Position numbers and translations under genes: made by a program. A stretch of 64,000 bases of DNA from Coffea arabica (lineage: Eukaryota; Streptophyta; Magnoliopsida; Gentianales; Rubiaceae), in assembly GCF_036785885.1 (NCBI RefSeq), contig NC_092320.1, forward strand, positions 14,509,557 through 14,573,556, read 5' to 3'. A model generated the notes under the pieces. That model searched no databases and was not told the origin of the DNA. It saw only the letters and a list, made by a program, of their open reading frames with translations. Below, piece after piece: positions 2,290 to 51,522 of the stretch; the first letter of the stretch is position 1, and each line of letters starts with the position of its first letter.

Positions 2290-2552
2290 TGTTATACCAG
2301 ATGCAGCGGAACAGAAGAACAAACAAGAATAGACAAGAACAACTTGGGGGAAATCAGATTGTATTAGGGTTGTAATTGGAATAGTTTACAGACTAAAATA
2401 ATGTGTATATATATACAACCAAACAGACTGGACCCAAAACAGGCCCAAAACAAGACCCAAAATAAAACAGACGCGGTAACTAATATATACCGTAAGCGAG
2501 ACCCCCGTACAGCTCAGCGGGGGTTGAAAATCTAATTCAAGGCATCTCAACA
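2290..2552 (-). repeat. 3' LTR of the copia element (full length)
   Basis: This LTR is 263 bp and begins and ends with the TG...CA type termini expected of LTRs. It keeps a central AT-rich block with a TATATATA core near 2407-2415 that is absent from the other LTR. It abuts the AGTAC duplication at 2285-2289. Confidence 0.9.
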
Positions 2553-2664
2553 ATCTCCACCTTGACTTGAATCTTCCCCGAAAAATGTAACAGACGCACT
2601 AATGAAGTGCCAGAAGTACTCAGAGAATTATCTCTAAGTACCATCAGAATGCCCATAAGGGCCA

Positions 2665-4584
2665 TCAGAAACTTAGGACATTTAGCAAATCCAAACAATG
2701 TTTGAATTTACTATGAGGGACCGGCTTGGTGAACATATCAACAGGATTGTCAGCAGTGCCAATTTTCTTCACCTTGATCCTTGTCTCAGATCTCAAGAAA
2801 TGATATCGGACATCAATGTGTTTAGTCCTCTCATGATGAACTTGATCCTTGGCTAAACATATTGCACTGAGACTATCACAATATATATTAGCCTGATCCT
2901 GATGTAGGCCAAGATCTCCAACCAGCCCCTTTAACCAAATTCCCTCTTTAGCAGCCTCCGTCAATGCCATATACTCTGCCTCAGTAGTGGACAGAGTCAC
3001 TGTAGGTTGTAGAGTTACTTTCCAACTAACTACAGAATGCCCAAGAGTGAAAACATAACCAGTCATCGACCTCCTACTATCAACATCTCCAGCATAATCA
3101 GAATCTGAATAGCCTGTAACCAAACACTCTGTATCACCTCCATAGATGAGACCAACATCAGATGTACCCCTCAAGTACCGAAAAATTCGCTTCACTGCCA
3201 GCCAGTGCTCCTTCCCAGGATTAGCCATAAATCTGCTAACAACACTGACTGCATGTGCCAGATCAGGTCTAGTGCAGACCATGGCATACATCAAACTACC
3301 CACTGCACTAGAATAGGGAACCTTAGCCATATACTCCATCTCAGCTTCTGACTGTGGTGCAAGTGTAACTGATAGTTGAGCATTCGTTGCACTCGGAGTA
3401 TTCAAGGGTTTTGCTGTAGACATGCCAAATCTGGATAGTACCTTCTCAATATAGCTCTTCTGTGATAAGAAAAGTTTTTTCTGACTTCTATCCCTGAAAA
3501 TCTCCATTCCTAAAATTTTCTGTGCTGCACCCAAGTCTTTCATCTCAAACTCTGCACTGAGAAGACTTTTCAACTTCTGTATATCAGCTTTATTCCTCGC
3601 AGCTATGAGCATATCATCTACATACAGAATCAAATAGATCATCGAACCATCTTCAAGTTTGTTGTGATATACACAACAATCATACTGACTTCTGTTGTAA
3701 CCTAGCTCAATCATGTAGCCGTCAATTTTTTTGTACCACTGCCTTGGGGACTGCTTTAATCCATACAAAGATTTCTTCAACTTGCATACATAATCTTCTT
3801 TTCCCCGAACATGAAATCTATCTGGCTGAGTCATATAAATCTCTTCATCTAACTCTCCATGTAGGAAAGCTGTCTTCACGTCTAGCTGCTCAAGTTCTAT
3901 GTCCTGATGTGCAACCATTGCTAGTAGCACCCTGATAGAAGTGTGTCTGACCATTGGTGAGAAAATCTCATTGTAGTCTACTCCTTCTCTTTGAGTGAAC
4001 CCTCTTGCAACAACACGTGCTTTATACTTGATGCCCTCAGCTGGAGAAATTCCTTCCTTCCTTTTAAAGACCCATTTGCAAGTCACAACCTTTCTCTCTG
4101 CTGGCCGTTTGACCAATTCCCAAGTGTCATTCTTGTGTAACGACTCCATTTCATCACCCATTGCAGCAAGCCATTGAGCTGACTCACTGCCTGAAATAGC
4201 TTCTCTATAAGTAGAGGGCTCAGGAGAATCCACCTCCTCAGCAACTTGAAATGCATAACCTACAAAATTCCGATACCTGCTGGGAGCTTGTACTCCCACT
4301 CTCCTTGCACGATCATAAGCAATACCATGCTGTTGAGTTTCTGATGCAGTATGGGATATAGGTGCCAACCTTTCTGCTGATGTAGGTTCTGGAGACTCTA
4401 CTTCTGCAGGAGGTTCAGTTTCACAGGATAGCTGTTGATAATCACTAAATTGCTGCTGTGATTCAAAACCATTTTGAATGATTTTTAGCTCTACCTGTTT
4501 ATCAACACCTGCACTTTCTTCATCACCTGTACTTTCTGCAACAACAACCTTCACAGAGGGGTTAAGTATAGAGTTTTCATCAAA
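2665..4584 (-). pseudogene. copia reverse transcriptase-RNase H part of the polyprotein
   Basis: This is the downstream half of the same polyprotein, in a different frame from the integrase part. The open frame has no convincing ATG at its start (the first usable codon at 4554 is GTG), which fits a continuation rather than a separate gene. It shows the copia RT entry region ([18 protein letters not shown]), the catalytic YVDD box (LILYVDDML), and the RNase H region with [18 protein letters not shown] and [11 protein letters not shown]. It ends normally close to the polypurine tract and 3' LTR. Apart from the frameshift no stop interrupts RT or RNase H, so decay is recent. Confidence 0.9.
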
Positions 4585-4586
4585 AA

Positions 4587-6665
4587 TTACACTTCTACTA
4601 AGTATAACTTTCCTTTCTGAGGGTGACCAGATTTATACCCTTTAACCCCATCTCCATATCCCAGAAACACTCCCTTTTTGGCCCTTAGTTCTAGTTTACC
4701 CTCACTGACATGATAATACGCAGTACAACCAAAAGTCTTCAAATTTGAGTAAGTAGGGGACATACCAGACCACACTTCATAAGGTATCTTGCAGTCTATA
4801 CCTGTATGAGGTGCACAATTGATCAAGAAGCAGGCCGTGCTCACTGCTTCCGCCCAGAACCTCCTTGGCAAACCAGCATTGAAGAGCATACACCGTGCTC
4901 TCTCTAGAAATGTCTGATTCATGCGTTCTGCTACACCATTTTGTTGTGGTGTGTGTCGAACTGTGTGATGCCGGGCAATTCCTTCATCTTTGCAGAACTC
5001 ATCGAACTCCTTTGAACAGAATTCCAGACCATTATCAATTCTCAGCCTTTTGATCTTCTTTCCAGTTTGATTCTCCACTAAGGCCTTCCACTGCTTGAAA
5101 TTCTTGAAAGCTTCACATTTTTCCTTCATAATGATTACCCAAGTCATCCTTGAATAATCATCAATCATGGATAAAAAATACCGACAGCCTCCCAAGGACT
5201 CAACTCGTGAAGGACCCCAACAGTCAGAATGGATGTAATCCAGTGTGCCTTTTGTCCTGTGAATTGCCTTCCCAAACTTTTTGCGATGTAATTTACCGAA
5301 AGTACAATGTTCACAGAATCCAAGATCAGTGACCTTGTGGCCTTCTAGAAGATCACGTTTAGACAAAATCTGCATCCCTCTTTCGCTCATATGACCAAGC
5401 CTGATGTGCCACAACTTGGTCATATCAGACCTGCGATCTTCAGAAGATGCAACAGTAGCAGCAGTAGAACCTGTTAGCGTAGAACCTTGTAAGATGTACA
5501 GGGTGCCATGCTTAACTCTTTTGAGAACCACTAATGAACCTTTACTGATGCACAACTCTCCACTTCCTCCGCTGAACCTGAAACCCTTACTGTCAAGAGT
5601 ACTAAGTGATATCAGATTCTTCGTCATTTTAGGGACATGCCTGACTTCGTTCAGTGTGGCAATTTTTCCAGTATGTGTCCTGATCTTAATCGAACCGATT
5701 CCAACAACCTTGCAGACAGCGCTATTAGTCATCACGACATTTCCGCCATCTATCTGCTCATATGTTGTAAACCATTCCCTATTTGAACATATGTGATAGG
5801 ACGCCCCAGAATCAAGAACCCACACATCAGAGTGATGTGTTGGTTCGTTTGCAATTAGGGCCAGGTCTTCTTCTGAATTTTCCGCTTCCTTTTCTGCAAC
5901 TGAAGCTGAAGCGTGTTGTTTTTCCTGCTGTTTCTTCTTCTTGGGACAATCAGATTTCCAATGACCCTTTTCCTTGCAATAGTTACAGACATCATCCGGC
6001 TTGGGACCTTTAGAGAACTGCTTCTTATTTCCGGACTTCTTTTTTCCCAATTTTCCTTTACCACTACTGACAACTAATCTAGCAACCTGATTATCTGTAA
6101 CATTACCAGCCGCCTTATGGCGCAACTCTCTACTATGCAGTGCTGATTTTACTTCTTCCAAAGTCACTGTATCTTTACCGCCAATAAAAGACTGAACAAA
6201 ATTCTCATACGATAACGGTAGAGACACTAACAGAATCAACGCGGCATCCTCATCCTCAATTTTAACATCAATATTACGCAATTCAAGAAGAATTGTATTT
6301 AATTGATCTAAATGTTCTCGAAGAGGAGTACCTTCTTGCATACGCAGACCGAACAGACGTTGCTTTAGGAGCAACTTGTTGGTTAAAGACTTCGTCATAT
6401 AGAGACTTTCAAGTTTAACCCACAAACCCGCAGCAGTTTCTTCACCGGCGACCTCAGTGATGACATCATCTGCCAGACACAACATGATTGTCGAGTGAGC
6501 CTTTTCCTCCAGACTCATCGACTCTTCATCAACGGAATCCGATTTCTTCTTTGTTAGCGGACTCCACAGGCTCTGCTGCTTTAACAGAGCCCGCATCTTG
6601 ATCTGCCATAAACTGAAACTATTTCTCCCGGTGAACTTGTCGATCTTGATGTTCAAAGCAGACAT
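4587..6665 (-). pseudogene. copia gag-protease-integrase part of the polyprotein
   Basis: Translation probably starts at the ATG at 6663-6665, because the open frame upstream of it lies in the primer site and LTR. In order, the frame has a copia Gag region, a CCHC zinc knuckle (CNYCKEKGHWKSDC), a protease site with DSGA, the integrase HHCC zinc domain (HIRLGH then CEHC), and the integrase core with the family's acidic residues (IDDYS, RIDNG, GVAERMN). The D-N-G motif reads RIDNGLEF where copia integrases normally have two glycines. The frame then meets a stop at 4587-4589, just after the [10 protein letters not shown] segment. A one-base deletion around 4628-4632 explains this, because the expected continuation is present in another frame. 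Confidence 0.9.
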
Positions 6666-6701
6666 GTTGTTGCGTGATCCGAGCCCTAGGACAAACCTAG
6701 A

Positions 6702-6713
6702 GCTCTGATACCA
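6702..6713 (-). other. Primer binding site for initiator tRNA-Met
   Basis: On the minus strand it reads TGGTATCAGAGC, the standard plant copia primer site, lying three bases inside the 5' LTR. Confidence 0.85.
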
Positions 6714-6716
6714 GTT

Positions 6717-6867
6717 TGTTATACCAGATGCAGCGGAACAGAAGAACAAACAAGAATAGACAAGAACAACTTGGGGGAAATCAGATTGTATTAGGGTTGT
6801 AACAAGAACAGCGAGACCCCCGTACAGCTCAGCGGGAGTTGAAGATCTAATTCAAGGCATCTCAACA
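6717..6867 (-). repeat. 5' LTR of the copia element, internally deleted
   Basis: Only 151 bp remain, against 263 bp in the other LTR. The first 86 bp (plus-strand order) are identical to the 3' LTR and the last 57 bp differ at two sites. The middle, including the only TATA-like block, is missing and is replaced by a short filler reading CAAGAACA. The same string occurs about 45 bp away inside the LTR. Since the 5' LTR carries the promoter of such elements, transcription of this copy is probably lost. Confidence 0.9.
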
Positions 6868-6872
6868 AGTAC

Positions 6873-7260
6873 TCTAGTGAGAGAAAACATGGGTAAATTG
6901 GATAATTAATGAGGGTACAAAAGGAAAGTAGTGTACAGATTTAAGCAATGAAAAATTTTTCTTAATTGGTGTGTAAAACCTTAAACGTCAGTTATAAAAA
7001 AAGAGAGGGAGTAGTAATAACTCTGACCATATTCTCTCCTTGTAACCTGTGCATTTAACTGAAAAATTGAATACCAACACACACACACACACACACACAG
7101 AGTAAAATACTGAAACCAGCTAGATGTTTAGGAAAAAGTTTCCTTAGTGGATGGATGATCTTTATCCATTTGAATCACATGCATTTAGATCTATTTACTA
7201 AACGGTTGCAATTGCCACTCGTAGTGAAACGGGTACGCATTTAAGGAGATCATCCTTATC
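6873..7260. other. Intergenic DNA upstream of the lipocalin locus
   Basis: No gene is seen. It contains a (CA)n microsatellite at about 7076-7099. It separates the copia element from the first lipocalin promoter by about 400 bp. Confidence 0.6.
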
Positions 7261-7357
7261 TTCCACGTCTCCACGCCATATATATATACTTGTTGAACCT
7301 TGCTTTGCTTTCTTCCTCAAGCTATACCCACAAGAAACAATTCCATTTCGTAACAAA
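7261..7357 (+). promoter_or_regulatory. Promoter and 5' UTR of lipocalin first exon A
   Basis: A TATATATATA box at about 7278-7287 lies 70-80 bp before the ATG at 7358. It is preceded by TTCCACGTCTCCA at 7261-7273. Nearly the same block, TTCCACGTCTCCA followed by a TATA box and a TGTT-AACCT string, recurs in front of exon B (8867-8902). The promoter was therefore duplicated together with the exon. Confidence 0.6.
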
Positions 7358-7774
7358 ATGTCTCCCTTTCTCTTAGCCCTTTTTTCACTCTTGATCTGCA
7401 AATCAATGGCATCCCATCAAGAAGTAGTAAGGGGCCTAAACGTGGAGAAGTACATGGGAAGATGGTATGAAATTGCTTCATTTCCTTCATTCTTCCAACC
7501 AAAAGGTGGTGTTGACACAAGGGCCACCTACACTTTGCGCCCTGATGGCAACATCAGTGTTCTGAATGAGGTCTGGGTTAATGGCCGAAGAAAATCCATT
7601 AGTGGCACTGCATATAAGGCCGATCCCAGAAGTGACGAAGCAAAATTGAAAGTCAGGTTCCGCATCCCTCCAGACCTTCCCTTCGTTCCTGTTGTTGGGG
7701 ATTATTGGGTTTTATACGTTGATGATGGTTACCAGAATGCTGTGGTTGGCCATCCTACTAGGAGATTTCTATGG
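7358..7774 (+). CDS. Temperature-induced lipocalin-like, first exon A (with hydrophobic leader)
   Basis: This exon encodes 139 residues of a plant lipocalin. It keeps the three structural signatures: GRWYEIASFPSF (strand A, GxW), GDYWVLYVDD (TDY region) and HPTRRFLW at the end. The exon stops in phase 0 at a GT donor (7775) in exactly the same place as exon B. Residues 1-16 add a hydrophobic stretch (FLLALFSLLI) not present in exon B or in ordinary plant TIL proteins, so the product could enter the secretory pathway. A second in-frame ATG at 7406 would give a leaderless protein that aligns with the usual start. No typical second exon follows within about 1 kb. A weak alternative at about 7863-7905 (ag then ATGCTGATATTAG, stop after 14 codons) or splicing to 10051 are possible. 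Reading through the donor gives a 184-residue frame with an unrelated tail. Confidence 0.8.
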
Positions 7775-8866
7775 GTATGTTTTTTTGCTCATCTATCTAT
7801 TCTCTGTACAATTGATCAATTCATGAAAATGGTGGTAACACATTTACTTACATTTTGTTTAGATGCTGATATTAGCGGGTTGTCCATACATGCATGCATG
7901 GCATTAATGTGAAAACCGGCGCTGCATAATACTGTATGTTGGGATGTGGTAGATAAGAATAAATGTAATCTTTTCTTTGTGTTATAAAAATCAATTGTAT
8001 TTCTTGGTCATACTTGTGACTTTCAAATTTCAAGTGCAATACTACGAATTTTGTTTGTTTGTTTGTTTGTTTGTACAAAATACTATTTTAATTGATCAGA
8101 AAAAAAAATGATAATATGAGATATCACCTAGACATATTCATTTTCCAACAATAAATGAAAATTATTTGTTTGTGTAAATTGTCTAATAAGCCAAAATTTA
8201 CAGAATTTTTGTTTGAAGTATGACAGCTTGAATATTTTTTTTACCAAACACATTTTACAATGGCCCATAAAGCAAAATATTCTCAAAATATTTTGCTTGC
8301 TTTTGAGGGATTGTCTTTATTTCTATTCCTCTATATTTATCTATAGTAGAGGTGTTCAATTTTTGACATGGTTAAGAGGTTTTTTTTTTTTTTTGGGCAA
8401 TTTGAATTGAAATGGAAAAACTTATTTAAATACAGGTAAGGACAATAAATGTGAATGAGTATTCCTATGCAGTAATTTTATTATGAAACTGAATCTTAAT
8501 AAATAAAATCTTCGAAAAGATGAGACTAAACCAAATGTTATCTTCTTCTCAAATCATTTCCAAAATCAGTTCATATACATATTTTTTTTTTCCGAATAAT
8601 TATACAGCCTTGATATGAATCATGAATAATTTCAAATCTTGAAAACAATTTGAAGAATTATTATAGGAGGGCAAACGGAATATCTCCATTTACCCCTGAA
8701 TGGAAAGAATCCAATTGTAGGAGAGTATTTGGGTCATTTGCTTAGTGTGAAATACTACTGCTATAAAACGCTAGTCGTATTTTCTTACGTATTAAAGACG
8801 TTCTAGAATGACCTGTAAAGCAATGGAAACAACCCGGAGCCTCTACAAATTCTATGGACCTTAAGT
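7775..8866. other. DNA between the two lipocalin first exons
   Basis: It contains a possible decayed second exon near 7863-7905, a poly(A)-signal-like AATAAATG near 7959, a (GTTT)n microsatellite at about 8052-8073, and otherwise AT-rich DNA. If exon A splices to 10051, all of this is intron. Confidence 0.45.
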
Positions 8867-9060
8867 TTCCACGTCTCCAAACTCTATATATACATGTTAA
8901 ACCTCTCCTCCTTTCTCTTAGATCCTCATCAAGCACTAGTATTAATCCAGAAAGCAGAAAAATCAAGTCCCATCTGGTAGTTTGGGCGCAAACCTTCATT
9001 ATCTACCTATCTATCTGCTTAGCCTCTATTTGATTCAAAATCTGCAAAAAAAAAAAAAAA
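8867..9060 (+). promoter_or_regulatory. Promoter and 5' UTR of lipocalin exon B
   Basis: A TATATATA box is at about 8885-8892, preceded by TTCCACGTCTCCA shared with the exon A promoter. A run of A of about 16 bases ends directly at the ATG at 9061. Confidence 0.6.
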
Positions 9061-10236
9061 ATGGCACCAAAGAAAGAGATGGAAGTGGTAAAAGGCCTGG
9101 ACGTGGAGAGGTATATGGGTAGATGGTATGAAATTGCTTCATTTCCCTCGTTCTTCCAACCAAAAAATGGGGTTGACACAAGGGCCACCTACACTTTGAA
9201 CTCTGATGGAACTATCCATGTTCTGAATGAAACCTGGTCTGATGGCAAAAGGGATTCCATTGAAGGCACTGCCTATAAGGCTGACGCCAAAAGTGATGAG
9301 GCAAAGCTCAAAGTCAAGTTCTATGTCCCCCCCTTCTTGCCCATCATTCCTGTTACTGGGGATTACTGGGTTTTGTATATTGATGATGATTACCAGTATG
9401 CCTTGATTGGCCAGCCTAGTAGGAAGTATCTTTGGGTACGTGTCTCTTTTTGATAACAGCATCATGCTTCTCTAGGTATAACTAAATCGTGTGACAATTG
9501 ATTGCTTTTCTGTGATGCTTGATTCTGAGAATCTGATACAAAAGGGAAAAATTTGCTAGCAAAATTTCGTGGGTTTAATGTGATTTTCTTACCTTAAGTT
9601 CTGGTCATACAAATAAGACTAGAATAACACATTTGAAACCAGGGAAGGAAGAAAGAAAGAAAGTACAGAAACAGAAATTATATCCTTCCATTGTCAATTA
9701 TAGTGATTAGCATTTTAGCAGAATGTGACTTATGGGATGTATTAGATGCCCATAAATGTCGTTTTGGGTTTATAAAAATATCAACTCCACCAAGGTTGGT
9801 TAATTTCGTTAATTAACCCAAATATAGATGGAGTAATTATGGATGTAAAATTTAAAATGATAATCATGCATGCAACCTTTAGATTACTTATTCGGATTCC
9901 TCATTGAAAATAGAAATGCTCTCAACTCAAAATTTCGAGCTCTCCTTATTTGGATCTTCTTTTTCTTTTCTGTCTTATGGAATATTCTTGAATTGAATCT
10001 TTGGCTTTTTACGAGCATAATTCAGAGGAGGTGGTGGTGTTGTTTAACAGATACTGAGCAGGAAAACCCACTTGGAGGATGAGATCTACAACCAGCTTGT
10101 TCAAAAGGCTGTTGAGGAAGGCTATGATGTTAGCAAGCTGCACAAGACACCACAGCATGACCCCCCTCCAGAGAGCGATGGAGCTTCCACCGATAACAAA
10201 GGGATTTGGTGGATCAAATCTTTATTTGGGAAGTAG
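9061..10236 (+). CDS. TIL: Temperature-induced lipocalin (two exons)
   Basis: Exons are 9061-9435 and 10051-10236, joined in phase 0 (CTTTGG/gtacgt, ttaacag/ATACTG), giving 186 residues, the usual length of plant TIL. The start MAPKKEMEVVKGLDVERYMG matches the family and has no signal peptide. The lipocalin signatures are GRWYEIASFP, GDYWVLYIDDD and QPSRKYLW. The short second exon supplies the C-terminal helix region (VEEGYDVSKLHKTPQ) and the conserved end KGIWWIKSLFGK. Plant TIL proteins bind the plasma membrane, and move to chloroplasts under salt, and protect against heat, cold, oxidative and light stress. A bound small lipid or pigment is assumed from the family. An AATAAA-type signal follows at about 10243 and another near 10307. 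Confidence 0.95.
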
Positions 10237-11721
10237 TTAGTAATAAACCCTTTTTTATCAAAATTGCAGCGTTAGTGCTGCAATCAGTAAAAGAAATAGT
10301 GGTGGTGTTGAATAAAAGGGCCTGAGAGTCCCATCTTTGGTAATGTAATTATTATTTCTGCCGTGTCCTTACTGTAATGTTTGAGAATAGCGTGGTTTGA
10401 TCTCTAATGCAATTTGAGTCTTTGCCTAAAATTTGTTTGTTGCTTTATCTTTGGGGTCAAGTTTCTCTGGATACCTCCACATCCAATGGGGCCTTTCAAT
10501 GTCAATGCTAGACTTGAGCGTTAAGGGATTATAGGAAGGTCCACTTGGAATTTGGGGATGAATCTTGATGCCCACATGTGAGGTCCATCTATTTTCTTGG
10601 AGCCCAGGAAAGTGTTGCGATTGATTTCTGATGCAACGGCTAAGTTTCGCGGAGGTTGCATGTCGGTGGAGATATGCCATGAGCTGGAACGATCTTAGCA
10701 GTATTGCCATCGTTATCCGACCAATTCGATAAATCCACGATCTAGGTTGGGTGGACAGAAATGCCAAGAAGAGAAAAGAATTTGAGGGAAGTTTGGGGGA
10801 CAGGGAGACGTGACTATTAAAGCTGTGATAAAGGAGGCTAAATCATTTGGACGCGGTCAAGTTTATCTCAAAACAGCCAACAAGAAGATTATAAACAGGT
10901 TAGTTGGATCCATCACCCTCCCCTGCTCTGCACCCCACCCTAGTATGGAATTAGCCCTTCTAAGAAGCGAGGGAACATTTTCAAGTGCTAGGCCGTTTGA
11001 ATATGGGGTTTCCGTTTGAATATGGGGTTTCGACAAGCTCTACTCTTGTCTCGAGAACAGCTGCTCAAGCAATCCACAAAAATGTTTTGTTCTCATGTAA
11101 TCAACAGAAATCTGGGCGTCAACTTAGCCTAACTGCTTGGCCCAGAAAACAAATGGTTGCCTCCTGGACCCGTGGGAAAAACTAATATACACTCAGAACT
11201 CTTTTTAAATAGAAAATTATTTAAGTTAAACCTCTAGGAACTACACAACATGACTTGTTAAGTTAGACTAGTCTGTAAAACTACAGTCCATCTCACTAGT
11301 AATTTTGCCCAATTGCTTGATAGCAATAGATAAGTTAGATTAGAGAACGTGCGCATTTCCATTTGTCATTAAAAGTTCGCTGATGATAGAACATCTTCAA
11401 CTAGGGACTCCTGCATCTATACTGAAATTCATGTATTAATAATAGACGGGGGGGGCAGCATTAGAAATAGTCGGTCATGAAAGAAACCCTGACTTGTAAT
11501 TGAGAAGACATCCTGTAATAAGAACGACGATAGTAGGCCTATAAGAATCCAAATCATTTCCTCTTCATCAACCATAAAACCAAGGAACAAAGGGGAAGCA
11601 CAAAAGGCATTCAATTTGACCACGACTGATGAATGATATAAACAACAATCAACTTCTTATATGTATAATATCAGACGCGCGTGAAATACATGGTTGAGCA
11701 GCCCCTTCATCTTCAGAAGAT
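10237..11721. other. Intergenic DNA between lipocalin and YKT6 genes
   Basis: After the lipocalin 3' UTR (to about 10380) the DNA has somewhat higher GC content up to about 11170 but no protein family was recognised. Open frames of 66-113 codons on either strand look random. A 17-20 bp direct duplication (GTTTGAATATGGGGTTTC) sits at about 10998-11031. YKT6 lies tail-to-tail with the lipocalin, and its 3' UTR should run leftwards from 11722. Confidence 0.5.
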
Positions 11722-23111: not shown

Positions 23112-24300
23112 TATGTATTCTAAGACTGGACAATAATGCTAGCTTAATGTACCAAAATGAATCCCGTCAATATGGTAAATCAAAAGAAGAAAGGGCTCGT
23201 GTTTAACCTTATTAAAGAAAACAAGACAATCACTCATCCATTATAGGATCAGTGAAGACACAGAGGTAGCTGCGAGGGAAGGTTGGGTTGTGCGATGCGA
23301 GAGAAAGGTTGGATTGGATGGCACGACGGGAGTAACTGTAAATAGTATATCCTGAGTTTCAACATCTCTTACTTACCAAAGAAATAAATAAACAAAGGTA
23401 GCTGGATTTCCAATCGCATTTGCATGTAAATATGATGATTCTCTCATCTACTATTAGCTTGTGATTTAACAGTCCTTATTGGCACGCAACTCTTTCTGCT
23501 TTGGTCAAGAACGGCAAAAGAAGTAACGCGGGTTGCAAGTAGACAGTTCTACGAAGGATTGACAAGACCATGTGGATTATGGGTCCTTACATTGAATTTT
23601 GTCCAATTCAATCCGGCTGATATAATTTTTACAACTTTTGGTGCATATATATAATTTATTTTAGTATAATCATGATTTTTACATCAATTTAATTATACGA
23701 GTTCAACAACTTCAAATTTACACCAAACATTTTGAAAATTTCATAAACAAAAGATCAGCTTGAGTGGCATCAGATCCCCAGTGTATGTTTATGCAGTAGA
23801 AAGTTCTATGCTTCATCCTACCAAATATTTACTGTAAAAACAAGAGGGAGAAGGAAATTGGCTGGCCGATACTTTTAAGAGATGAAATGATTCCACCAAC
23901 GTCCTTTGATATTAATGATGGATGTAAATTTTCTTTCTGCCAAGAAAACGATATGGATTTGGATTTGGTTACCGTCTGTAATGTATACTGAAAGATTAAA
24001 CAGCTCATTTTCATAAATGAAAATGACTTCACAGCCTACTACATACAAATGAGCTGGCATTTGATGCCACTATAGCTGAAGACAGGTATACTGTTGATGC
24101 TTCACTATTTGAAGCTAGACCTCCAATCCTCTGTATCCTCCAAAAATCCTCTGCAGCTTTTGTAAGAACAAACCTCAGTCCAGCTGACAAGAAATTGGCC
24201 ACCACTACTATTATCTAAAACTAAAGTATAACAATCTCGACTATCAAGTACTCTTTTCGGCTCAATTCTCACCCTCGAGAACTGAAAAGGACATATCTGT
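23112..24300. other. 5' flank of the carboxypeptidase gene
   Basis: No gene or repeat with clear ends was seen. The last few hundred bases should contain the promoter and 5' UTR of the gene starting at 24301; no clear TATA box could be assigned. Confidence 0.5.
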
Positions 24301-27300
24301 ATGGCTTCATCTTCATTCTTTTTGTGGCTACTTTTATTTGCTGTTGCATTAGCCGCAGTAGAGTCAATCCCTGTTTTTGTACCTGGGGCATACAAATCTT
24401 CCCTTCTGAAGAAACAAGTCAAGAGTGCAAAACCAGAGATACCATACGAAGCCCACTATTTCCCTCAGGTTCTTGACCACTTCACTTTCCGACCCAGGAG
24501 CTACAAAATCTTCTACCAGAAGTATCTTATGAACAGCCAGTACTGGCACGAAGGAGCACCCATCTTTGTTTATACGGGAAATGAAGGAGATATTGAATGG
24601 TTTGCAGCAAATACTGGTTTCATGCTGGATATTGCTCCAAAGTTTCGAGCTCTCCTCGTCTTCATTGAAGTATAATCTGCCTGCTGAATTCTCAAATTTT
24701 TTTTTTTTTTTTACGTTAATGATCCTGAAAGCTCTCTTTTTCTTCCGCTTTAAATTTACTCAAATTTGTGATGCATGATAAACAATCAAGAAGGAACCTC
24801 TATAAATAATACTGCATTTTCATGAATTTTGTTCTTCCAAATTTAGTTAAGTCATTATATCCTAATTTTTGTAACAGTAGTATCTGCTTAACTGTTCTCT
24901 ATTTGGATTGCCTTCATAGAGAAGAGGCTTAAGAAAAAAATTCTGATCAGGAAATTCTTATTGAAGAATGTGAACAATGGGATTTGTTTTTTACCATTTT
25001 CAGCATAGGTTTTATGGGGAATCTTTGCCCTTTCACAAGAAAGATCTCAACTCTGCAAAGACATTAGGGTACTTGAGTTCACAGCAAGCACTGGCTGATT
25101 ATGCAGTTCTGATAAGGAGTTTGAAGAGGAATCTGTCTTCAGAGGCATCTCCTGTTGTGGTCTTTGGCGGATCCTATGGAGGAAGTAAGTTAAAGATTTT
25201 CCTTCCTATTCCCTTTGAATATACATTATTGATGCTGTGTAACTGAATGAGACAGGCATGAGAATGGATCATTTTTGTCTACGCCTGCACGTGAATAAAT
25301 TGTTTGGACTTGAAAATATCAGTATTGCCACTTGCCAGTTGACTGGACCTTTTGCCAGCAGTCTTTGTGGCAATAATTTAATGACCATTGGGCATTCTTT
25401 GCGCAGAAATTTCGTGGCAATTATTGAAATTCTTGAGGATTGTGACCCGTAGAAACTGGATTTTTCCCTCAGTTTTCTGTCTGCAGTAGCAGATTTCTAA
25501 ATCTCTGGTATTCCACATTGCCAGAAAAAGAAAAAGAAGGGGGCTGATAGTATCAGACTAATGAATAACTACTCCTAATAATAGATGATTATCAAGTTAT
25601 TTTCAAAATTTTAACGTGATTCTTAACACTTGATTTCAGTGCTGGCTGCTTGGTTTAGACTTAAATACCCACACGTTGCTATTGGAGCTTTGGCATCTTC
25701 AGCCCCTATATTGCAGTTTGATGACATAACTCCTTGGTCTAGCTTCTATGATGCTGTTTCCCAGGATTTCAAGGTCTGTGGTTCATAGTAGAAATCAGAC
25801 CTCAACCTGATTAGGAAAAGCTAAATTTTCTCTCCTTTTCATCCATAATCTTCCAGCATATATGCAACTTTTAATCACCTGATCATAAGCATACAGGAGG
25901 CTAGCTTAAACTGCTATGAGGTTATAAAAGGTGCTTGGACAGAATTGGATGCTTTTGGAAAAAGAAAAGACGGACTGGAAAAGCTCAGCAAGATGTTCAG
26001 AGCTTGCAAGTAAGTTGTAAGAAATTAGGAAGGGATCACAGTTTGGATTGGATCATAATCATGACCTATAGGCAATAGTTAGTGAAATTGTCTGATATTT
26101 TCAGTCTTGATCATGGGGTTATGTAACATAAATTTTACTTATTGTTTTTAAAAACAATAAGCATTGATGTTTTAATTTGGACGCCAAATATAGGGACTTC
26201 TTCTTGGTTTCCTCCTCTCTTCTTTTCTCAACTTCCCCTGCTCCTCCTCCATTTTCCTCGCCAAAGTTCTCCACTGCTCTTCCCCCCCTCCATATCTAGC
26301 CAGCAAGTAATTTCTCCGCAAACAAGGTTACAGGCAGCCATTGAAAAAGCTCTCTCAATCCTATGGAGGAGCATTGATGACAATCATGCAAGGAAGTCCA
26401 ATAGCAATCATGGTAGCCTAGCCAAAATTCCCAAAGAATTGCTTAAAACACACGACCATAAAGTACACTATTCCCTTAAATTGCCCCTTGATCATGACTC
26501 TAATATTTTTGCAGCCAACTTTGCTAATCTAGTTCAATTTTCTGATTAAACCTCAGGAAGTTGAGTTCAGTAGATTATGCTCGGAACTGGTTATGGTCAG
26601 CTTTTACGTACACAGCAATGGTGAATTATCCGATGGAAGCTAATTTCATGAAGCACTTGCCTGCCTATCCTGTGGAGGAGGTGCAGTTTACATAGAAAAC
26701 GCGCTAATTGAAATTTGATCGTAAAGGGTTTTTCCAGTTTCTAACAATACGTATCTTGGTTTGGTTGTTGAAGATGTGCAAGATTATTGATGGACATTCC
26801 CCTAGAGCAACAAAGCTTAGCAGGGCTGTTGCAGCAGCAAGTTTGTATTACAACTACTCCAAGACAGAAAAATGCTTCAAGTTGGAAGACGAGGATAATG
26901 ATCATGGCCTCCAAGGCTGGAATTGGCAGGTAACAAGCTCGACTCATCGCACAGAAGAAGTAATATTAGTCCTCATGCATGCCAGACCAAATTTGTCAGC
27001 TTTAGTTAGCATGGTTTTCTATTGTTCTGTTTCAAAGAAGCTAAACTCGCCAGACAAAAGCTGTGCATGTGAAGGTTGGACCAGCTGTTACATGTGTTGG
27101 GTTGGAAAATGCTTAATGGAGTACTGACACAGGACTTTAAAAACTGGTTTTGCAAAGAAATGCATTACAATCTTCAAATTGCAACTGTGCTGCAACAGTG
27201 TAAAAATTGAATCAGTGAATTACACACTTCTGGATTCTGCTAAGTGAATGCTAGTTATTGATTTGAACTGACAGAATTTATCTTCAGGCATGTACAGAAA

Positions 27301-29184: not shown

Positions 29185-30689
29185 TTAGTAGTTAATGATT
29201 TTAGCTTTAAAAGGAAATTAAGAATGTCTTTTGTTGTTTGGGAATGTATCAATTGTCATCCTAGGAAAAATCAACCTTTTAATCCCCTTTGTGGCTTTTT
29301 CAAGTTGTGGATCCTTGTGAGAATAGCACGGCAAACTATGCTTGTAACCATGACACGACCTACCAATACATGCACTGGTAGGCCTTAGAATCAAGGTCTC
29401 ATGCATTCTTGCAATCCTTCTCTTTTTCTGCCCCTACCACCACATGCAAGAAGAGAAATTTGCATTTACCACCTAATATCTTCATTTACGCTCATGGTAC
29501 AAGGCAAGAACAATTGTTAGGGGTAACCATTTTTCCAAATTTAGGATTGCACACATTTCTATTCTAAAGTTAATTTAACCATGTCATTGTATTTTAAGGA
29601 AAAAATTATGCTGCAAGCCTAAAATTTGGTAAATCACTTGTTTTGAATTGTACGAGGCTAATCCACTTCACTCCCTCCTTCTGTCACCTACGCTGCTAAG
29701 TGGGAATTCTTGACTTCTGTGTTCATTAGGGCCGATAAGACAGAAGGGATCATGCGAAGTTCCAACGAATCATGACACATAAAGGGAAAAACCCCAATTC
29801 TACATTTAGCTGGTCTTATTTTGGTCCCCTTGCTATTACTCAAGCTAATCTTGCAGCTTATCATATGAAAAGAAAGGATGTCGCTCAAGCTAATATGGTC
29901 GCTAATTATTTTAGGGGGGAGGGGGATCCAAAGCAGATACCCATTTTGACAATACCGTAATACCATCTCATATATGCATTAATTTAACAAATGCAGATAT
30001 TAAAACACTACCGTGTAAAAACATGACAAAATTTGGAACTCATTAAAAACTGTCGACGTTTAATTTTTTACATTTGCAGTAAAATCTGGAGGTAGAGAGT
30101 GAGTAGTAATGTACCCTTTTAGTTTGAAAATAGGTTGCTTTGCTTCTAATTTTTATTGATTCAGTTAGACACTTAAAACTCTCTTGTAATATAAATTAAA
30201 ATAAAAATATTGTAGATGTTGTGGGTTGACAAAAAAAATCAACTTACACACATCTTCTCCATGGATGCACCGGGCAATTGGTCAGCAATTGTACAGTCCA
30301 TTCAACAAAACAGTTAACCACACCTAACATACGAGTCTCTGGTGTTTTTATCCCTTCATCGTTTGTATTTCTCCATTCCTTCAAAATGTGGGAGCGAATC
30401 AAGTCACAGAATTGATAGGTGAGGGGACCAAAACTGCAATTTGCCCATAAGTAAAAGCAATCATTCATAACCAGAGAAAACCACCTTTGACTGAAGTTAA
30501 TGGAAAGTACACTAGCGTAACTAACTACTGCTCACAGCTATTAAATGGAGGTGTGCCAGAAAGGCAGCAGCCCCACTTCCCATTTCCACCTCAAAACCTC
30601 TAATCAAAACAAAGCAGTAGATCCAATATTCATAATCCTTCCCACTCAAATTACTTACTACTGCTCCTTTGCTATTGGCAATTAGGAAG
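29185..30689. other. Intergenic DNA
   Basis: No protein family or repeat with clear ends was seen. A purine-rich GGGGGGAGGGGG tract is at about 29914-29926. The last 150 bp may be the promoter of the DUF1068-like exon at 30690. Confidence 0.5.
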
Positions 30690-30885
30690 ATGTCAAGGCG
30701 ATCTGGGAACTGTGTAAGGTGCTGTTTGGTTGTATTTGCAGTGGTTTCAGCTCTCTGTGTATCTGGGCCTGCAATTTACTGGAAATTCAAGAAAAGTCTC
30801 AGCTTGAAAACTGCATCGTTGAATTCTTGCAGTCCTTGTATTTGTGATTGCGCCCCTCCTCTTTCCCTTCTCAAGATTGCTCCTG
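30690..30885 (+). pseudogene. First exon of a DUF1068-type plant protein, rest not found
   Basis: From the ATG at 30690 the exon reads MSRRSGNCVRCCLVVFAVVS, a hydrophobic anchor, then WKFKKSLSLK, a Cys-rich CSPCICDCAPP and LLKIAP, ending in phase 1 at a GT donor (30886). This is the N-terminal part of the small plant DUF1068 family of single-anchor proteins of unknown function. The rest of the family protein (the acidic, Lys/Glu-rich helical region) was searched for by eye on the plus strand to about 36000 and not found. The exon itself looks intact, so either the gene was cut by rearrangement or later exons are too diverged to see. Confidence 0.65.
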
Positions 30886-33800
30886 GTATGATATTTATTG
30901 GTCAAAGTTTCAAGCTTTGGAATAATTTTTCCTTCTTTTTTGGTCGTCACGCCTGCATGATTTCATGACCAAATTTGATATTTTGTGGATTTGAGCTAGT
31001 ATTTGTCACATTTTTTTAATATCTGAAGAACTGTGGAATTGGGACACCTTAGATCGCTTCTGATTTTCTTTTTGTCTTTATTCGGGATAGTCTTGTGTTT
31101 ATTCGAATTGAATGGAAATCTTGCATGTTTATCTGGGCTGAAAATTAGAGGGCTTTAAAATTTGTTCTAGATTTCTTAATGCCCGCAATATTTTTTGTGG
31201 GTTGAGATCGATATTTGCAAGAACAGTTTACCCTCGTTGAGCGTTCATAATGTAATGTCGGTGCAGTTCATGCCCATTGCAACCCCAACCCAACCCCTCC
31301 CCCCCCCCCCCCAAAAACCAAAACAAAAAAAAACAAAGCAAAACTTTTTTTTTGTTTTTGTGTTGGGGGGGGGGGGGTGTTGGGTGGTTGGTCGTGACGG
31401 TGTACTAGGCTTTTGCGTGGGAATCTAGGAGTTTGGTGCATGGTTTTTATATTGCCCTATACGATGTTTTCTGGCTGCTTCCAAGCAGTATCCATCTACA
31501 TTGGCAGAATGCAGATGCATGCATCCCTTCTCTGCTTGCGTTAGCAAAAAATCCACTCTCATTCTGGAATTGAGCAGCCTGACCATATCTTGCCTTATGC
31601 AATAGGGGAGATTCTTACTTAGGAGTCCCACCTAGATGGCTGCCATGTGCACCAAAAACGTGGGGACTCCTTAGTCCTTACTTTTGGTACCATAGTGGCA
31701 TAGCCCCATGCTTTTGGTACACATGCAACTATCTTGAGGAGTTACAATGCAGGGCCTTTACATGCAATAGTTAGTATGTAGTTGCATGGTTTATGCAGGA
31801 AGCAAACAGGTTTGTAAAATGGCATATTTATGTATCGTGACTCTGGAGCTCAAAACTATTATCCATCTCATGCAAATCCAGTTGCTAAGGTCATACTTTG
31901 AATGGAATGCACCCTTTTGTGTCTTGCTTTACGCTTTTTATTCCAGAGTATAAGATCAGTTTGGATTTGTGGGGTTTAGTATTTTTTTCAGCATTAGTTG
32001 CAGGTAAAGATCCTATTTTTCTGCATGAGAAATAGATTTTCTACATGGCTCGAGTGATTAGGGAAATAGATATAATTATGCTGCTTCTCTTTTGAAAAGA
32101 ATGCCGTGACATACTAGAGTTCTTTCTGTTTGTCTCTTTTTTTATTCAGGATAAAATCTTCATGTTTAAGCTTGATGGAGAATTGAATGTTTGTTGTTAG
32201 CTGTTGAAGGTGAGTGCCTTTTTTGTCCTGAGAGAAAAAAGAAAGAGAGAGGGGAACAAGGTGAGCAATTTTTTTTTGGGAAAATTGCAGAAACCTCCCC
32301 TGAGGTTTCTGACAGTAGCACTCACCTTCCCTCTAATTTAAGAAATTGCATTTACCCCCCTAATCTTAAGGAATCTGGTGCAGATTCTGTCCAAAGTAGA
32401 AAGAGTCCCATTAAAAAATTGTTTTAAGGAGGGAGATAAGAAATTTGTGCCAGATTTGCCGTTCATCTTGCTTGCCTAGTAGTATTAGCAAAGGAAGGAC
32501 AAATCCTATTATGGATCAATAGACTTCGGGGGGTATAAGTGCAAACCATTTCCAATACACTTGCAACCGCTTAAGCATCAGATAAATGCGACAACTAATA
32601 AATGGCAAAATGAGATCTGAACTTGCATGAGCTTATAAATAAGGTCTGATTTAGCAGTACACTACTACAACTGGTTTTTACCGGTAACACAGCTAGTTTT
32701 CTTGACTTTAGTTTGGTAGTTAGAGACTTAGAGGTGAAGTGTTGCAGCAAAAAACATGGCTTCTTCCAGCCACAGGAGAGAATCGTAGAAAGCTGTATAA
32801 CAGTGAAGATGTAACTAAGTTTCTTTGTTGAGGTACTTCATTAATGGGGCAGTTATATAATATATGAAATTTAGGAAAAAGAAGTCAGAGGAAGTCTGGT
32901 TTACAAAAGTTAGTTTGATGCTTGATTGACCAGCTCTAATACCATGAAGGAAAAATTGGAAGCCTCACTAAATCTCCCAAGATGATCTTGGGACCTTAGG
33001 TTGTGATGCAATAGATATTGAGCACATTCAGTCAATTACAGGAAAGTGATTCACCTGTTGCAATTGATTATCCATTCCCCTTGTGGGTTAGAGTTTAATC
33101 TACCAGAAAGTAAATTGGTCCAGTGTGGTAAACCAAATAAAATACAAGAAAACTTCTGAGTTTTGATGCCATGATTGTTGGTATCATAAATTTGATTATC
33201 CAAAGGTAAAGCCTACCTCAATTCTTGAAAGTGGTTGCAACGAGAAGCTTCCATTTATGTTTCCTTCATGGTGCACTTGCAGGTTAATCAAACCTTTTAT
33301 AAGCTTCTCCTTATTCTTGTCTGTTGCTCTCGCTTGATTTCGTTGAACGACTTGACTACTTTGAACTATAAGAAATTAAGGGATTTGTCTATTACATGCT
33401 TACATGGCTATCAGAGGTAGTTTTCTGTGCATTTTTAGTGGATGAGAGTTGTCATGGGTGTCTAAGCAACACAATAAGTGATCAAAACCAAATATGACTC
33501 CTCTCACTAGATTGGTGTTTCCTCCAGCTCTTTGCTTTCCAACTTATCTCCATATACTAATCGAGTATCAGGTATCTAAATGGAAAGGGCCAAGAAAATG
33601 TGACTCGGTAGATCCTGAGTTAAATGAGCATTTGTATTTCGTTGGCATTATCCTCCATTAACCTAAACTTCCTCTGCTGACTTTCATCTTGCCGTTTACC
33701 TTCAGCAGTCTCAGCCTGCTTTAATTTGGAGTGGTATATTTGTATTTGTGTGGAGAAGGGAGCTTGCCTGCTGAAACTCTTGATCAAAATTTCTGCTCAC

Positions 33801-36754: not shown

Positions 36755-37179
36755 TATTTTGGGGAAGATTTCTCTTGCAATACTTGTCTATCTAAGGAAG
36801 AGTCACGCATTCTTATATGTCCTGCTTCGCCATAGTAAAAAAAGTGATTGTTCATATCAACAATAGAATCTGAAAAAAATGAAAAAGAGTTAATTCTTTT
36901 TATATTTTTCTCCAAAAAAATATTAACCTAACATATTATTATCAAAGCCATGTCCTTGTGTGCGTGTGTATATATTTTTTTGGGAAGATGTTGCTTTTTT
37001 TTATGTTTCTCTTACAACACTTACCTATCTAAAGGAAGAGCCACGTGTTCTTATTTGTCCAGCTTCGGCCATAGCCAAGAAAGGGATTATCCATACATTA
37101 ATATAATCCAAAAAACAAAAAAAAAAAGTTAGTTTTTTTTTCCTTTTATTATCCAACCATGTCCTTGCCTTATATATAT

Positions 37180-37265
<86 letters not shown>

Positions 37266-37345
37266 CATTTTTCTGTTCCTCTTTACCACACTTGCCAATC
37301 TAAGAAAGAGCCACGTGTTCTTGTTTGTCTTCGACCAGAGCCAAG
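36594..37345 (+). repeat. Minisatellite, three units of about 245 bp with (AT)n cores
   Basis: Each unit has GATTATCCATA...AATATAATCCAAAAAA, then AATATTAACCTAA, CCATGTCCTTG-type sequence, a TA tract of variable length, TTTCTCTTxCAAxACTTGxCxATCTAA, GGAAGAGCCACGTGTTCTTAT and TTCGGCCATAG. Units start near 36594, 36830 and 37076. The embedded (AT)n runs are about 36 bp (36716-36751), almost absent, and about 95 bp (37168-37262). Confidence 0.75.
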
Positions 37346-37399
37346 AATGCTCAAAACCAAATTTAAAGCAGAAGAAGACGGAAGGAGCTTTAACTTTTA

Positions 37400-40300
37400 G
37401 GGTGCGTTTGGTTCAACAGAATTGGAATTGAATTGGAATTGGAATTCTATAGAATTAGAATTCCATGAATTGGAATTCCAAAACATTGAAATTCTTTTGT
37501 TTGGGAAATACATAGAATTGATACAGAATTCATTTAGAATTCCAAATTCTTTGTTTGGATCGGAGAAGAATTCATTAAAAATTAGAATTGTTTCCAACTA
37601 ACATTTCCTTACATAAAAAATTTCTTTTTTTTTACTATATAATAATTTTTTAACATTTAGCTAATTGTTACTAAAGCTTTAAGGAAAAAGCCAATTAGTG
37701 CCTTTAATAATTTATTTTTTCTTGCATTTAACTAATTGTTACTAAAGCTTTAAAGAAAAAAAAAACAAATAAGTTCCTTTTCTGCAAAAAAAAAAAAAAA
37801 TTCTTGTTTTTTTTAATTAAATTATATTAAATAAAAAATTGCTTCCATTCCCACTTTTCATGCTCCTAACCTTCCATTTCCGTTTCAGGCTGGATAAGAT
37901 ATTGTTTCCCCAATTTTATGATAGCACGTAGAACTATATTAAAGTATCGACTAACTGTCTCACATGATCTTATGAAATTAAAATTGACAGTGCGATTCTT
38001 AAAGTTATGAGCAAGAACATAGAGAAACATTGCAACTGCTTCTTCAACAGTAATATTTCTAGTATCCCTCAACCCACAATGCTCTCTTAAATTTGTACAT
38101 AAAATAGTAAAACAATGTTTATTGAGTCGAAATTGCTCTACACAAACTCTATTGTTTCCATAGTAAAGACGCCTTAGATATATTTCATGTGCTACTTTAA
38201 AGTCCAAATAAGGCTCCTTTACTATATGTTTCTCGTGCCACCAAACTACTAATGTGGCTACTGTTACCATATAATTTGCAACTACCACTTTTCTCTTTTT
38301 TGTTTTTTGCTCGTCTCCTTCCTTATCGATGTCAATATCCAAATTCTGCAATTCAAAATCACGACAACAATAAGAAAAGGTAAGTCAAAAGACCAAATTT
38401 TAAAAAGTGGGTCTGTGTTAAATTCTACATGGTCAATTGAAGCTAAAATGATAGCTAAATAAACCTCTGACATAATAATCTGCAATAATATTTTTGCCTT
38501 TCGTAAAATATTACATTTACAGCTTGTGAATACAACTATTGACAGAAACAAATATATTGGCTTATACACCTTTAATACTTTAGAGATCGCTTAGGAATTA
38601 GCTTTAGTATTACAATTTTGTAATTCATTAGTTTGTGCAAGTTGTTGGTAAACATAATTATTAGCTTCTGTGATTCATTGCTATGATCAGGTTAGTGTTT
38701 CGATTTGGTACTGCCCACTTTGCCTTGGAAAATAAGCTTGGGAAACTATTACACTCAATTCTGCGAGTTACAAAACAAAAGATTAATTATCTTCCCCTTG
38801 AAACTCCTCTATATGTGTGTGTGTGTGAGATAAAGATAGCTATTTACAATTTCCTAACTAGCAATGAATTGCAGGGAAGGCCCAACTGGATAACAAGCAC
38901 ACCAAAGCTTCTTAAAAAAAGCCAGAAACTTTGGTATTATTCCTGCCTATTTTGCTACAAATATGTCAGAGTAAGGCCAGATTGGGAGATTAATTGCACT
39001 TCCTACCAATAACGCATTCATGTTACACCACATTAAGAATACTGTGATAACCATAAGCTTTAAAATATGCTTAACAATTGATTATATAGAGAAACATACA
39101 CCAAAGAACTGCAGGACAACTGTTCTAATTAGTGTCAAAATTGAACCATTATTACCAGGCTCAATAGTTGAAATATGAAAGCTAGAGATAGAGCTATAAT
39201 TTTCACATCAAAAAACCTATTCACAGCATTCGAAGCACTTGAAAATAAATACCTTTATAAATACCACACATACAAGGAAGACTGGAGTGACGATCTTCAG
39301 CCTTTAAGCATGTCCAACTTCATGTCAGCCCGCAACTTTGCTATCAAGAAGAATGCACCGACCTCACTTTAATGCAGGACAAGGTTAAACAAGCCTTCCT
39401 GTAACATATTAGGAACAATCAAACACATTTAAATGTACGTTAAGAGAGAGTGTGTGTGAGAATTTATGACAGCATTAAATAGTCGAAAACACACATTCAT
39501 CACATTCCATGTCCATTGACGAGAAGTTAGCAGCCTTGAGACGATACATAAAAATTTTTCAGGCCCTGACCCGACAGCAAATTTTTCCTTTAAGAAAAGA
39601 AACAACAAGACAACAAGATAAAGTGCTCTATAAATTGAAGACAAGCAACCATTGTAAAGCACAAGTGCAGGCAAGCTTTAGCTAAACATGTCTCTGGCCT
39701 TTGTCAGGCAATACAGGAAGTTCAAACAAGGTTTAGAAAGCTTTTATTTTAAGCAATGAACAGATATGAATTATAAAACTTCACCCTAGAATTCTTCAAA
39801 TTATCTAAAAGACTCCTAGTAGGATGAATTGTTGCTGAGGTAAATGACTCTGTATGATTAATCATACAGAGGAGGCAGGGGAATAAACGTATATATTTTG
39901 AAAATTTTGTCAAATAAATTTGTTGCATATGACCTGCAGAGATTGAGCCCCAGAGATCCTGAACTGCCCTATTGTTCAAGATGGCGTCCCAAATAGCTTT
40001 CTGCGGGCAACAGGTTATAGAATTGGTTTCGTTATCAACCAAACCAAACCCCCCCTCTCTTCCCTTCCCTTCCCTTCTTGGCTAATCATAATTTTCATTT
40101 TTTTTAAGCAAAAAATAATTATGTGCTAGAAAGATGCTGGAAAGATTAAAAGATTATTCTGATAGTAGATTATTTTGATGCTGGAAAAATTAAGAAACAA
40201 CTCTTACCAACTTGGCTTGTTATTTCCTTAATATGATGGGTGTTTAGCTCGAACCACTGGTACTCTATTCGAGGTTGCCATGTGTTAGTACATCTTTAGG

Positions 40301-50300: not shown

Positions 50301-51522
50301 GCCTTGGATTTAGAATCTGGAACAGATCCAGAATTCTTGTCTGGATTATCCGGCTCATCAACTTCCATTTGATCAATTGATCCAACAACCTTAAACAATA
50401 CAAATCTTATGTCAGCTGTTTACTGTGCATCCATTAGACGCCACATTCACCAGTATGTTTTAGAAGCATCAGTTATCCTGTATTTAATCTACATCAAGCT
50501 TCACATTCACGATAAAGAGAAGTCTTCATTAAGATTCTAGAACCAATGTAACAACCTGATAAATGATCAAATAGTTGATGCATCATTTTACCAAAACAAG
50601 ACCCTTATCCTTCAAAGACCCCTCGTGTAGCAATATGGTGAATATCAGAAAAGTGAAGTCCATAATTCTGCCATATGGGCGGCATTTAAAGCTTCAATCT
50701 TTAGCATAGATCCCCTTGCAATCTATAGCAAGTTGGCACTTCAATTTTCCTTCCATGCATAAAATCCATTTTATTCGACTGCCTTGTCAAAAAAAATTCT
50801 CCTTAAAGAGGCAAAAGAAAGTAAATTGAAGAAAAATTAGCACTATCCACAATGGCAAAAGTAAAACAACACAACAACTTAATCCCCCTGTATATGTTCA
50901 CAATCAACTTCTTAGGTTGGTCTGTCCTATAGTTAGTTCTTTTTTCTTAAACTGTAGGTTCAGTTCCTTGTAACCATGATTCCACGTTCCAACCTTTAAA
51001 ATCTCCCAGTGTAAGAAGTTCACATCTGACAAACGAGGACCAAAAGAAAAAGAAGAACGACGACTATCAAAATCAAACTTTAATGGTTAAATTGAGAAGA
51101 AACTCGAATGAGATTAACATAAATCAGGTGCAAAAGAAGGTAAAACAAAAAATTCAAACTTGGAGAAAAATTCAGCTCCAGAACAGTAAAATTCTAGCCA
51201 CATTGCAAAATCATGATAATAAATGCAGTAAATTCGCAAATATATTGAGCTGAAATAGACTACTAGCAATGGCTTACCGAAGGAAAGACGGCTTTGGGAG
51301 CATCTTCGCCAGCATAACCAGCTTTGCAAGTGTGTGAGCCTAAGTCCACCACTATAGCTGATACCTCATCTATTTTTTTTATACATAGCAGAGAAAAACG
51401 CACATAAATTAAACAAATTTAAACTGGTACATAGTGAAGTCTGTGCTAGCGAGTGCCTGAGCCTGTAAGTGTGTGTTCTACGTGAAAGAGAAAGATAGAA
51501 CGATACTACCTCCGCCGTACAT
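41390..51522 (-). CDS. ARP4: Actin-related protein 4, nuclear (20 exons)
   Basis: Exons in gene order: 51510-51522, 51278-51369, 50243-50389, 50081-50154, 49397-49477, 48739-48799, 48459-48508, 47677-47731, 46436-46513, 46272-46325, 45452-45505, 45308-45368, 44760-44811, 44443-44509, 43224-43286, 43063-43125, 42410-42472, 42042-42106, 41525-41593, 41390-41435. Every border is GT-AG and phases add up to 435 residues, close to the usual plant length. The start reads [20 protein letters not shown], with an acidic insert after VFPS ([12 protein letters not shown]). The actin-fold nucleotide blocks are [28 protein letters not shown] and [15 protein letters not shown], and the end is [18 protein letters not shown]4 is a shared subunit of the SWR1, INO80 and NuA4 chromatin complexes. 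The first coding exon is only 13 nucleotides. Confidence 0.96.

Follow-up and report, generated by a model that had tools for sequence, protein, structure and literature searches.

According to two published accounts of UGT1, every first exon there has its own promoter and the downstream exons are common (PMC3325998; PMC9013439); thirteen variants are described in one of them (PMC9013439). In the literature, temperature-induced lipocalins (TILs) are described as stress proteins that associate with membranes and carry no targeting peptide (PMC2527315; PMC4441748). The membrane-targeting hydrophobic proline-rich (HPR) loop of TIL has the consensus hydrophobic-PP-hydrophobic2-P-hydrophobic2-P, and mutation is reported to have shown its dependence on the hydrophobic residues (PMC4441748). 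Tandem TIL pairs have been reported in Brassica (PMC12982346). A temperature-induced lipocalin, Q38JD4, is listed among tomato exosome proteins (PMC13303597); export in vesicles may, therefore, be open to a TIL, and an extracellular TIL need not imply a leader of the kind described below.

The TIL locus described here resembles UGT1A/UGT1 in its homologous tandem first exons, A and B, in the candidate promoter block before each of them and in what looks like a single constant 3′ part, a lone matching exon 2 with which the phases of both agree; its putative products would likewise differ at the N-terminus and be identical at the C-terminus. It differs in having two variants and one constant exon, and in coding for a plant lipocalin with an altered N-terminal targeting region, the splicing being deduced from DNA. 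The tandem duplication of TIL is shared with Brassica, where it is reported as gene pairs (PMC12982346). Compared with the TIL represented by PDB 8wb2, the locus has an extra first exon and an extra promoter block. The arrangement is known in kind, both as variable first exons of the UGT1 type and as TIL, and is new in a plant lipocalin among the literature matches listed. The titles and abstract openings of those matches contain no secreted TIL, TIL signal peptide or alternative first exons of TIL.

The same lipocalin domain is found, as judged by PDB matches, in bacterial Blc and animal ApoD. Both of these proteins are exported. Their relationship to TIL is stated in the literature (PMC2527315). 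Unlike an inherited export signal, the leader described here would have been regained secondarily from 5′ untranslated sequence.

Exons and promoter blocks

The locus lies on the plus strand of the window, which is the whole 64-kb stretch of DNA analysed. The intron-bearing TIL gene, the copia elements and the other gene families mark the window as probable plant DNA. First exon A (7358–7774) comprises 417 nt, or 139 codons, and first exon B (9061–9435) comprises 375 nt, or 125 codons, and has the standard TIL start. Both encode positions 1–111 of the Pfam family Lipocalin_2, with scores of 121 bits for A and 143 bits for B. Exon 2 (E2, 10051–10236; 186 nt, corresponding to 61 codons and a stop codon) encodes positions 112–146 (31 bits) and the C-terminal tail, so the domain characteristic of TIL is divided at an exact seam. 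The length of each exon is divisible by three. Exon A ends with TTTCTATGG/GTATGT (donor GG/GTATGT) and exon B with TATCTTTGG/GTACGT (donor GG/GTACGT); the sequence directly before E2 is TTTAACAG. The claim of the initial annotation that the two first exons stop in phase 0 at one and the same codon is borne out by the sequence and by the Pfam seam; the codon is that of a Trp and is followed in both cases by a GT donor. The intron of the standard gene (9436–10050) is 615 nt long, and a putative intron leading from A over exon B to E2 (7775–10050) would be 2276 nt long. The 3′ untranslated region (10242–10316) has AATAAA at 10242 and 10311.

When joined in silico, A and E2 give 200 residues and B and E2 give 186, which are the product lengths originally proposed; the splicing of both first exons to E2 is putative. 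The B product was compared with the solved TIL structure PDB 8wb2 (‘Temperature-induced lipocalin-1’, a plant protein as assumed from its name). The two agree at 107 of 118 residues in exon 1 and at 43 of 61 in exon 2 and, by this resemblance, the B product is a standard TIL. Exon A is identical to 8wb2 at 86 of 118 residues, with a 16-residue N-terminal extension and an Asp in the HPR loop. A single convincing second exon had been noted initially, and this was confirmed by tblastn searches of the whole 64 kb (E up to 3): the exon-1 query matched A and B, and the exon-2 query matched one place, 10051–10233, the only two further matches having E values of 1.3 and 1.6.

The alignment of exons A and B covers 354 bases with 79% identity. 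The 75 nucleotide differences rule out an assembly artefact in which one allele is represented twice, and had a tandem array collapsed, exon B should have been lost and not just the second exon of A.

The candidate core promoters of A (7253–7300) and B (8859–8904) are homologous. Both contain TTCCACGTCTCCA (7261–7273 in A and 8867–8879 in B) and a TATA box, read by eye at about 7279–7288 in A and about 8885–8892 in B. For the 80 nt surrounding the TATA boxes, none of 2000 shuffles matched the alignment score, confirming that a related promoter-like block precedes each first exon. The more distal 200 nt upstream are unlike (808 of 1000 shuffles reach the score), the introns have no detectable similarity (81 of 100 shuffles) and the block of blastn similarity spans 7261–7780 against 8867–9441. 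Neutral flanks and introns of such age have diverged past recognition, which hides how far the duplication first reached; the duplicate might have included exon 2 as well.

A weak heat-shock-element-like motif, TTCTAGAA, lies upstream of B (8801–8808, plus strand). The patterns TTCnnGAA and GAAnnTTC have no match in the region upstream of A (6901–7358) and four matches in 6901–10060, TTCTAGAA being one of these; its presence upstream of B alone is, therefore, likely a chance occurrence. If the motif were functional, the two forms could differ in their heat response.

The window also contains other features. A copia-type LTR retrotransposon with gag, integrase and RVT_2 ORFs occupies 2290–6868 on the minus strand; its two LTR copies share about 96% of the bases in their aligned parts, the copy nearest A is without about 110 nt and the LTR similarity ends about 390 nt upstream of the core promoter of A. 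A second copia gag ORF (62762–63973) lies at the right end of the window. The plus strand carries exons of a gene for a serine carboxypeptidase S28 (24286–25243) and an exon of a DUF1068 protein (30636–30965); the minus strand carries an exon (51278–51397) that covers the N-terminal portion of the Actin family (positions 2–32) and perhaps comes from an actin-related protein. Several frames of a long TA-rich tract (37028–37428) read as poly-Ile-Tyr. The whole window gave no matches in Rfam and tRNA scans.

Constraint on exon A and the need for an exon 2

The reading frame of exon A contains no stop codon and no frameshift. An open frame after 75 differences is expected in 5.8% of neutral cases and is, alone, weak evidence of function. 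Comparison of A with B gives a dN of 0.185 and a dS of 0.532 by the NG86 method, and 0.186 and 0.426, respectively, by LWL85. A rough hand estimate of dN/dS for the A branch alone is maybe near 0.6–0.7, and the case for constraint is, for this reason, built on neutral simulations and not on dN/dS. Despite the 75 nucleotide differences, A and B have the same residue at 86 of 118 positions, a level that none of 20,000 random placements of the differences matched.

With 8wb2 as the outgroup, 25 residue changes can be assigned to the A lineage and four to the B lineage, with three sites differing in all three proteins; the imbalance (two-sided binomial p of 1e-4) indicates faster evolution in A. 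The changes specific to A are conservative in kind. Five of the 25 have a negative BLOSUM62 score, and as few were seen in none of 5000 neutral simulations; 12 have a positive score, a number reached in 169 of the 5000. They avoid columns conserved among 80 bacterial relatives (the mean entropy was reached in 11 of 5000 simulations) and, at 22 of the 25 sites, the residue of A occurs among these relatives. Of 30 columns with a conservation of at least 80% among the bacterial sequences, A retains 27 and B retains 28. The GRW motif, a lipocalin signature, is present in A. Judged from these comparisons, exon A is not neutral debris and has been maintained by selection; its faster evolution also fits a copy that is weakening. 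Gene conversion between A and B was considered, as silent differences look sparse at about 7460–7567, and was rejected: permutations give no support for clustering (441 of 5000 in the best case; 8693 of 20,000 for the longest run).

An exon 2 is necessary for A. One of the 80 bacterial relatives was excluded because its alignment ends before the seam; all the remaining 79 carry at least 32 further residues (median 39), and in at least 74 of them the part after the seam starts with [IVLF]L[SATC]R, a lower bound counted from the eight commonest tetrapeptides. A would otherwise be missing a regular part of the domain, and E2 is the sole candidate for its exon 2 found within the window.

The main rival explanation is that A once belonged to a separate, tandem TIL gene whose own exon 2 was recently and cleanly deleted, and that what is left is a dead or dying 5′ fragment which makes no useful protein. 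The 25 changes in A against four in B would suit such a fragment, tandem TIL genes have the reported precedent in Brassica (PMC12982346) and the diverged flanks conceal how far the duplication originally reached. On the other hand, the donor and core promoter of A are retained together with its intact frame, and the simulations point to constraint across the branch. Searches for an exon-2 relic behind A were negative: shuffled sequences scored at least equally in 200 of 200 DNA alignments and 162 of 200 protein alignments, and a BLAST search of 7775–9000 yielded only two 9-nt matches at an E value of 4.5. The sensitivity of this search was measured with planted neutral relics, 100 trials each at 0.20, 0.27, 0.35 and 0.45 substitutions per site; blastn recovered 100, 99, 79 and 21 of them, and tblastn recovered 97, 74, 31 and 0, so the search may overlook relics whose age exceeds about 0.35 substitutions per site. 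A recent loss must, therefore, have been a clean deletion, and after an old loss, the relic of which would mostly escape detection, the constraint on A since then is unexplained unless another exon 2 was available. In view of this, the remnant explanation is considered unlikely, although it is the strongest competitor.

Splicing of exon A and the N-terminal leader

Each promoter would start its own transcript. Transcripts beginning upstream of 9061 would encode the standard 186-residue TIL. In transcripts beginning upstream of 7358, the cap-proximal donor at 7774 would be joined to the only matching acceptor, that of E2 at 10051, and exon B would be passed over; the product, of 200 residues, would have a diverged barrel and be longer by 16 residues at its N-terminus. 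As no in-frame acceptor lies upstream of exon B, this exon would be skipped as part of the intron. An in-frame fusion of A to B is ruled out by a stop codon at 9031 in the frame of B, since the sequence from there to the start codon contains no AG.

Other fates of the A transcript can be envisaged. Twelve YAG sites preceded by at least 60% pyrimidine are present in 7850–9060, all with tracts richer than that of the E2 acceptor (8 of 15), the best being the site at 8922 (15 of 15); six AATAAA or ATTAAA hexamers lie within 7775–10050. Any of these acceptors or hexamers could truncate A transcripts. Without splicing, the ORF of A extends to 7912, with an AATAAA at 7958. The strong site at 8922 and the retained ORF thus suggest a second rival, in which A is transcribed and yields a truncated or non-coding RNA, through intron retention to 7912 or the cryptic site at 8922, and perhaps interferes with the promoter of B. 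However, constraint at the amino-acid level would not be expected of such an RNA, and the 12 cryptic acceptors continue the frame of A by 29 codons at most; this explanation is regarded as improbable.

The initial proposal that a promoter and exon 1 were duplicated while E2 remained common is partly supported and agrees with the majority of the tests. The constraint on A, its donor and core promoter, the single exon 2 and the lack of a detectable relic favour E2 as a common exon, the poor pyrimidine tract of its acceptor and the faster evolution of A count against it, and the duplicated segment may have been longer than proposed.

Translation of A from 7358 adds a 16-codon leader, MSPFLLALFSLLICKS (7358–7405), a candidate signal peptide. 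The leader has its homologue in the 5′ untranslated region preceding exon B, where it aligns with 9002–9048, and is followed by a second in-frame ATG (7406–7408) that aligns with the start codon of B. The two regions have in common, with few mismatches, the stretches TCTCCCTTTCT, CTTAGCC and ATCTGCAAA, and then ATGGCA. The score of their local alignment was reached by 14 of 2000 shuffles; when anchored at the common ATG it was reached by none of 2000, with a narrow margin (the alignment scored 26.0, the best shuffle 25.5 and the shuffles on average 8.4).

The hydrophobic core of the leader comprises 11 residues with a mean Kyte–Doolittle value of 2.96, and is short for a membrane span. Of 5000 composition shuffles, 2194 contained stops; 132 of the 2806 that were stop-free (4.7%) equalled the leader in hydrophobicity, as did 32 of 1005 open ATGs in the window, that of A itself included. 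The hydrophobicity is mildly above what the C/T-rich composition leads one to expect. The hydrophobic leader reported initially does exist as an ORF, but its sequence is related to untranslated sequence of B and its hydrophobicity exceeds the expectation from composition by little. Small residues at −3 and −1 fit signal-peptide cleavage, and cleavage at SMA/SHQ appears plausible.

Within 7285–7420 the only ATGs are those at 7358, with A at −3, and 7406, where −3 is T and +4 is G. Given these contexts, use of the ATG at 7358, the first after the TATA block, is expected, and some leaky scanning is possible. It may also be that A is joined to E2 and its leader is not a signal peptide, the product being a cytosolic variant TIL made with a translated C/T-rich leader or from the start at 7406. 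This reading, which is compatible with a common exon 2 and not an alternative to it, draws on the homology of the leader to untranslated sequence, on the shuffles that match its hydrophobicity and on the correspondence of the second ATG, with its G at +4, to the start of B. The first position and A at −3 of the ATG at 7358 speak against it, as do the 11-residue hydrophobic run and the small residues that suit a signal peptide; the cytosolic variant is somewhat doubtful.

As to its origin, an upstream in-frame ATG probably captured pyrimidine-rich 5′ leader sequence, turning it into a leader that may serve as a signal peptide, if a short one. Since TILs are generally described as being without a targeting peptide (PMC2527315), the leader was more probably gained in A than lost from B. 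The initial statement that plant TIL is not normally known to be secreted agrees with the same literature (PMC2527315; PMC4441748). A secreted form of the A product is possible.

The barrel of A has changed as well. The HPR loop of B, PPFLPIIP (9328–9351), matches the consensus, whereas its equivalent in A, PPDLPFVP (7667–7690), keeps the four prolines and has Asp in place of Phe, so that it does not strictly match. The A-specific changes T65N and H67S create a new N-I-S site, and T72V removes an N-E-T site; the gain or loss of one N-X-S/T site is, in our judgement, unremarkable in a protein of this size. Together, the changes in the A protein are weakly suggestive of, and compatible with, another compartment.

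A putative two-variant TIL gene

The most likely reading of the locus, in which we place moderate confidence, is a gene with two tandem variant first exons of the UGT1 type and one common exon 2. The secretion of the A product is plausible but less well supported than this arrangement. A fuller proposal is correspondingly more tentative, possible but held below even confidence: a miniature UGT1-type locus in which a signal peptide derived from the 5′ untranslated region would yield a secreted TIL with a diverged barrel and the common exon 2, its membrane-anchoring loop weakened by Asp, an N-X-S site gained and an N-X-T site lost.

Annotation pipelines could call an exon such as A a fragment or overlook it. 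If the two-variant reading is true, a second N-terminus under selection would direct a TIL to another compartment with the use of the same exon 2, and the locus would show how a candidate signal peptide can arise out of 5′ untranslated sequence, an event that could be dated in relatives.
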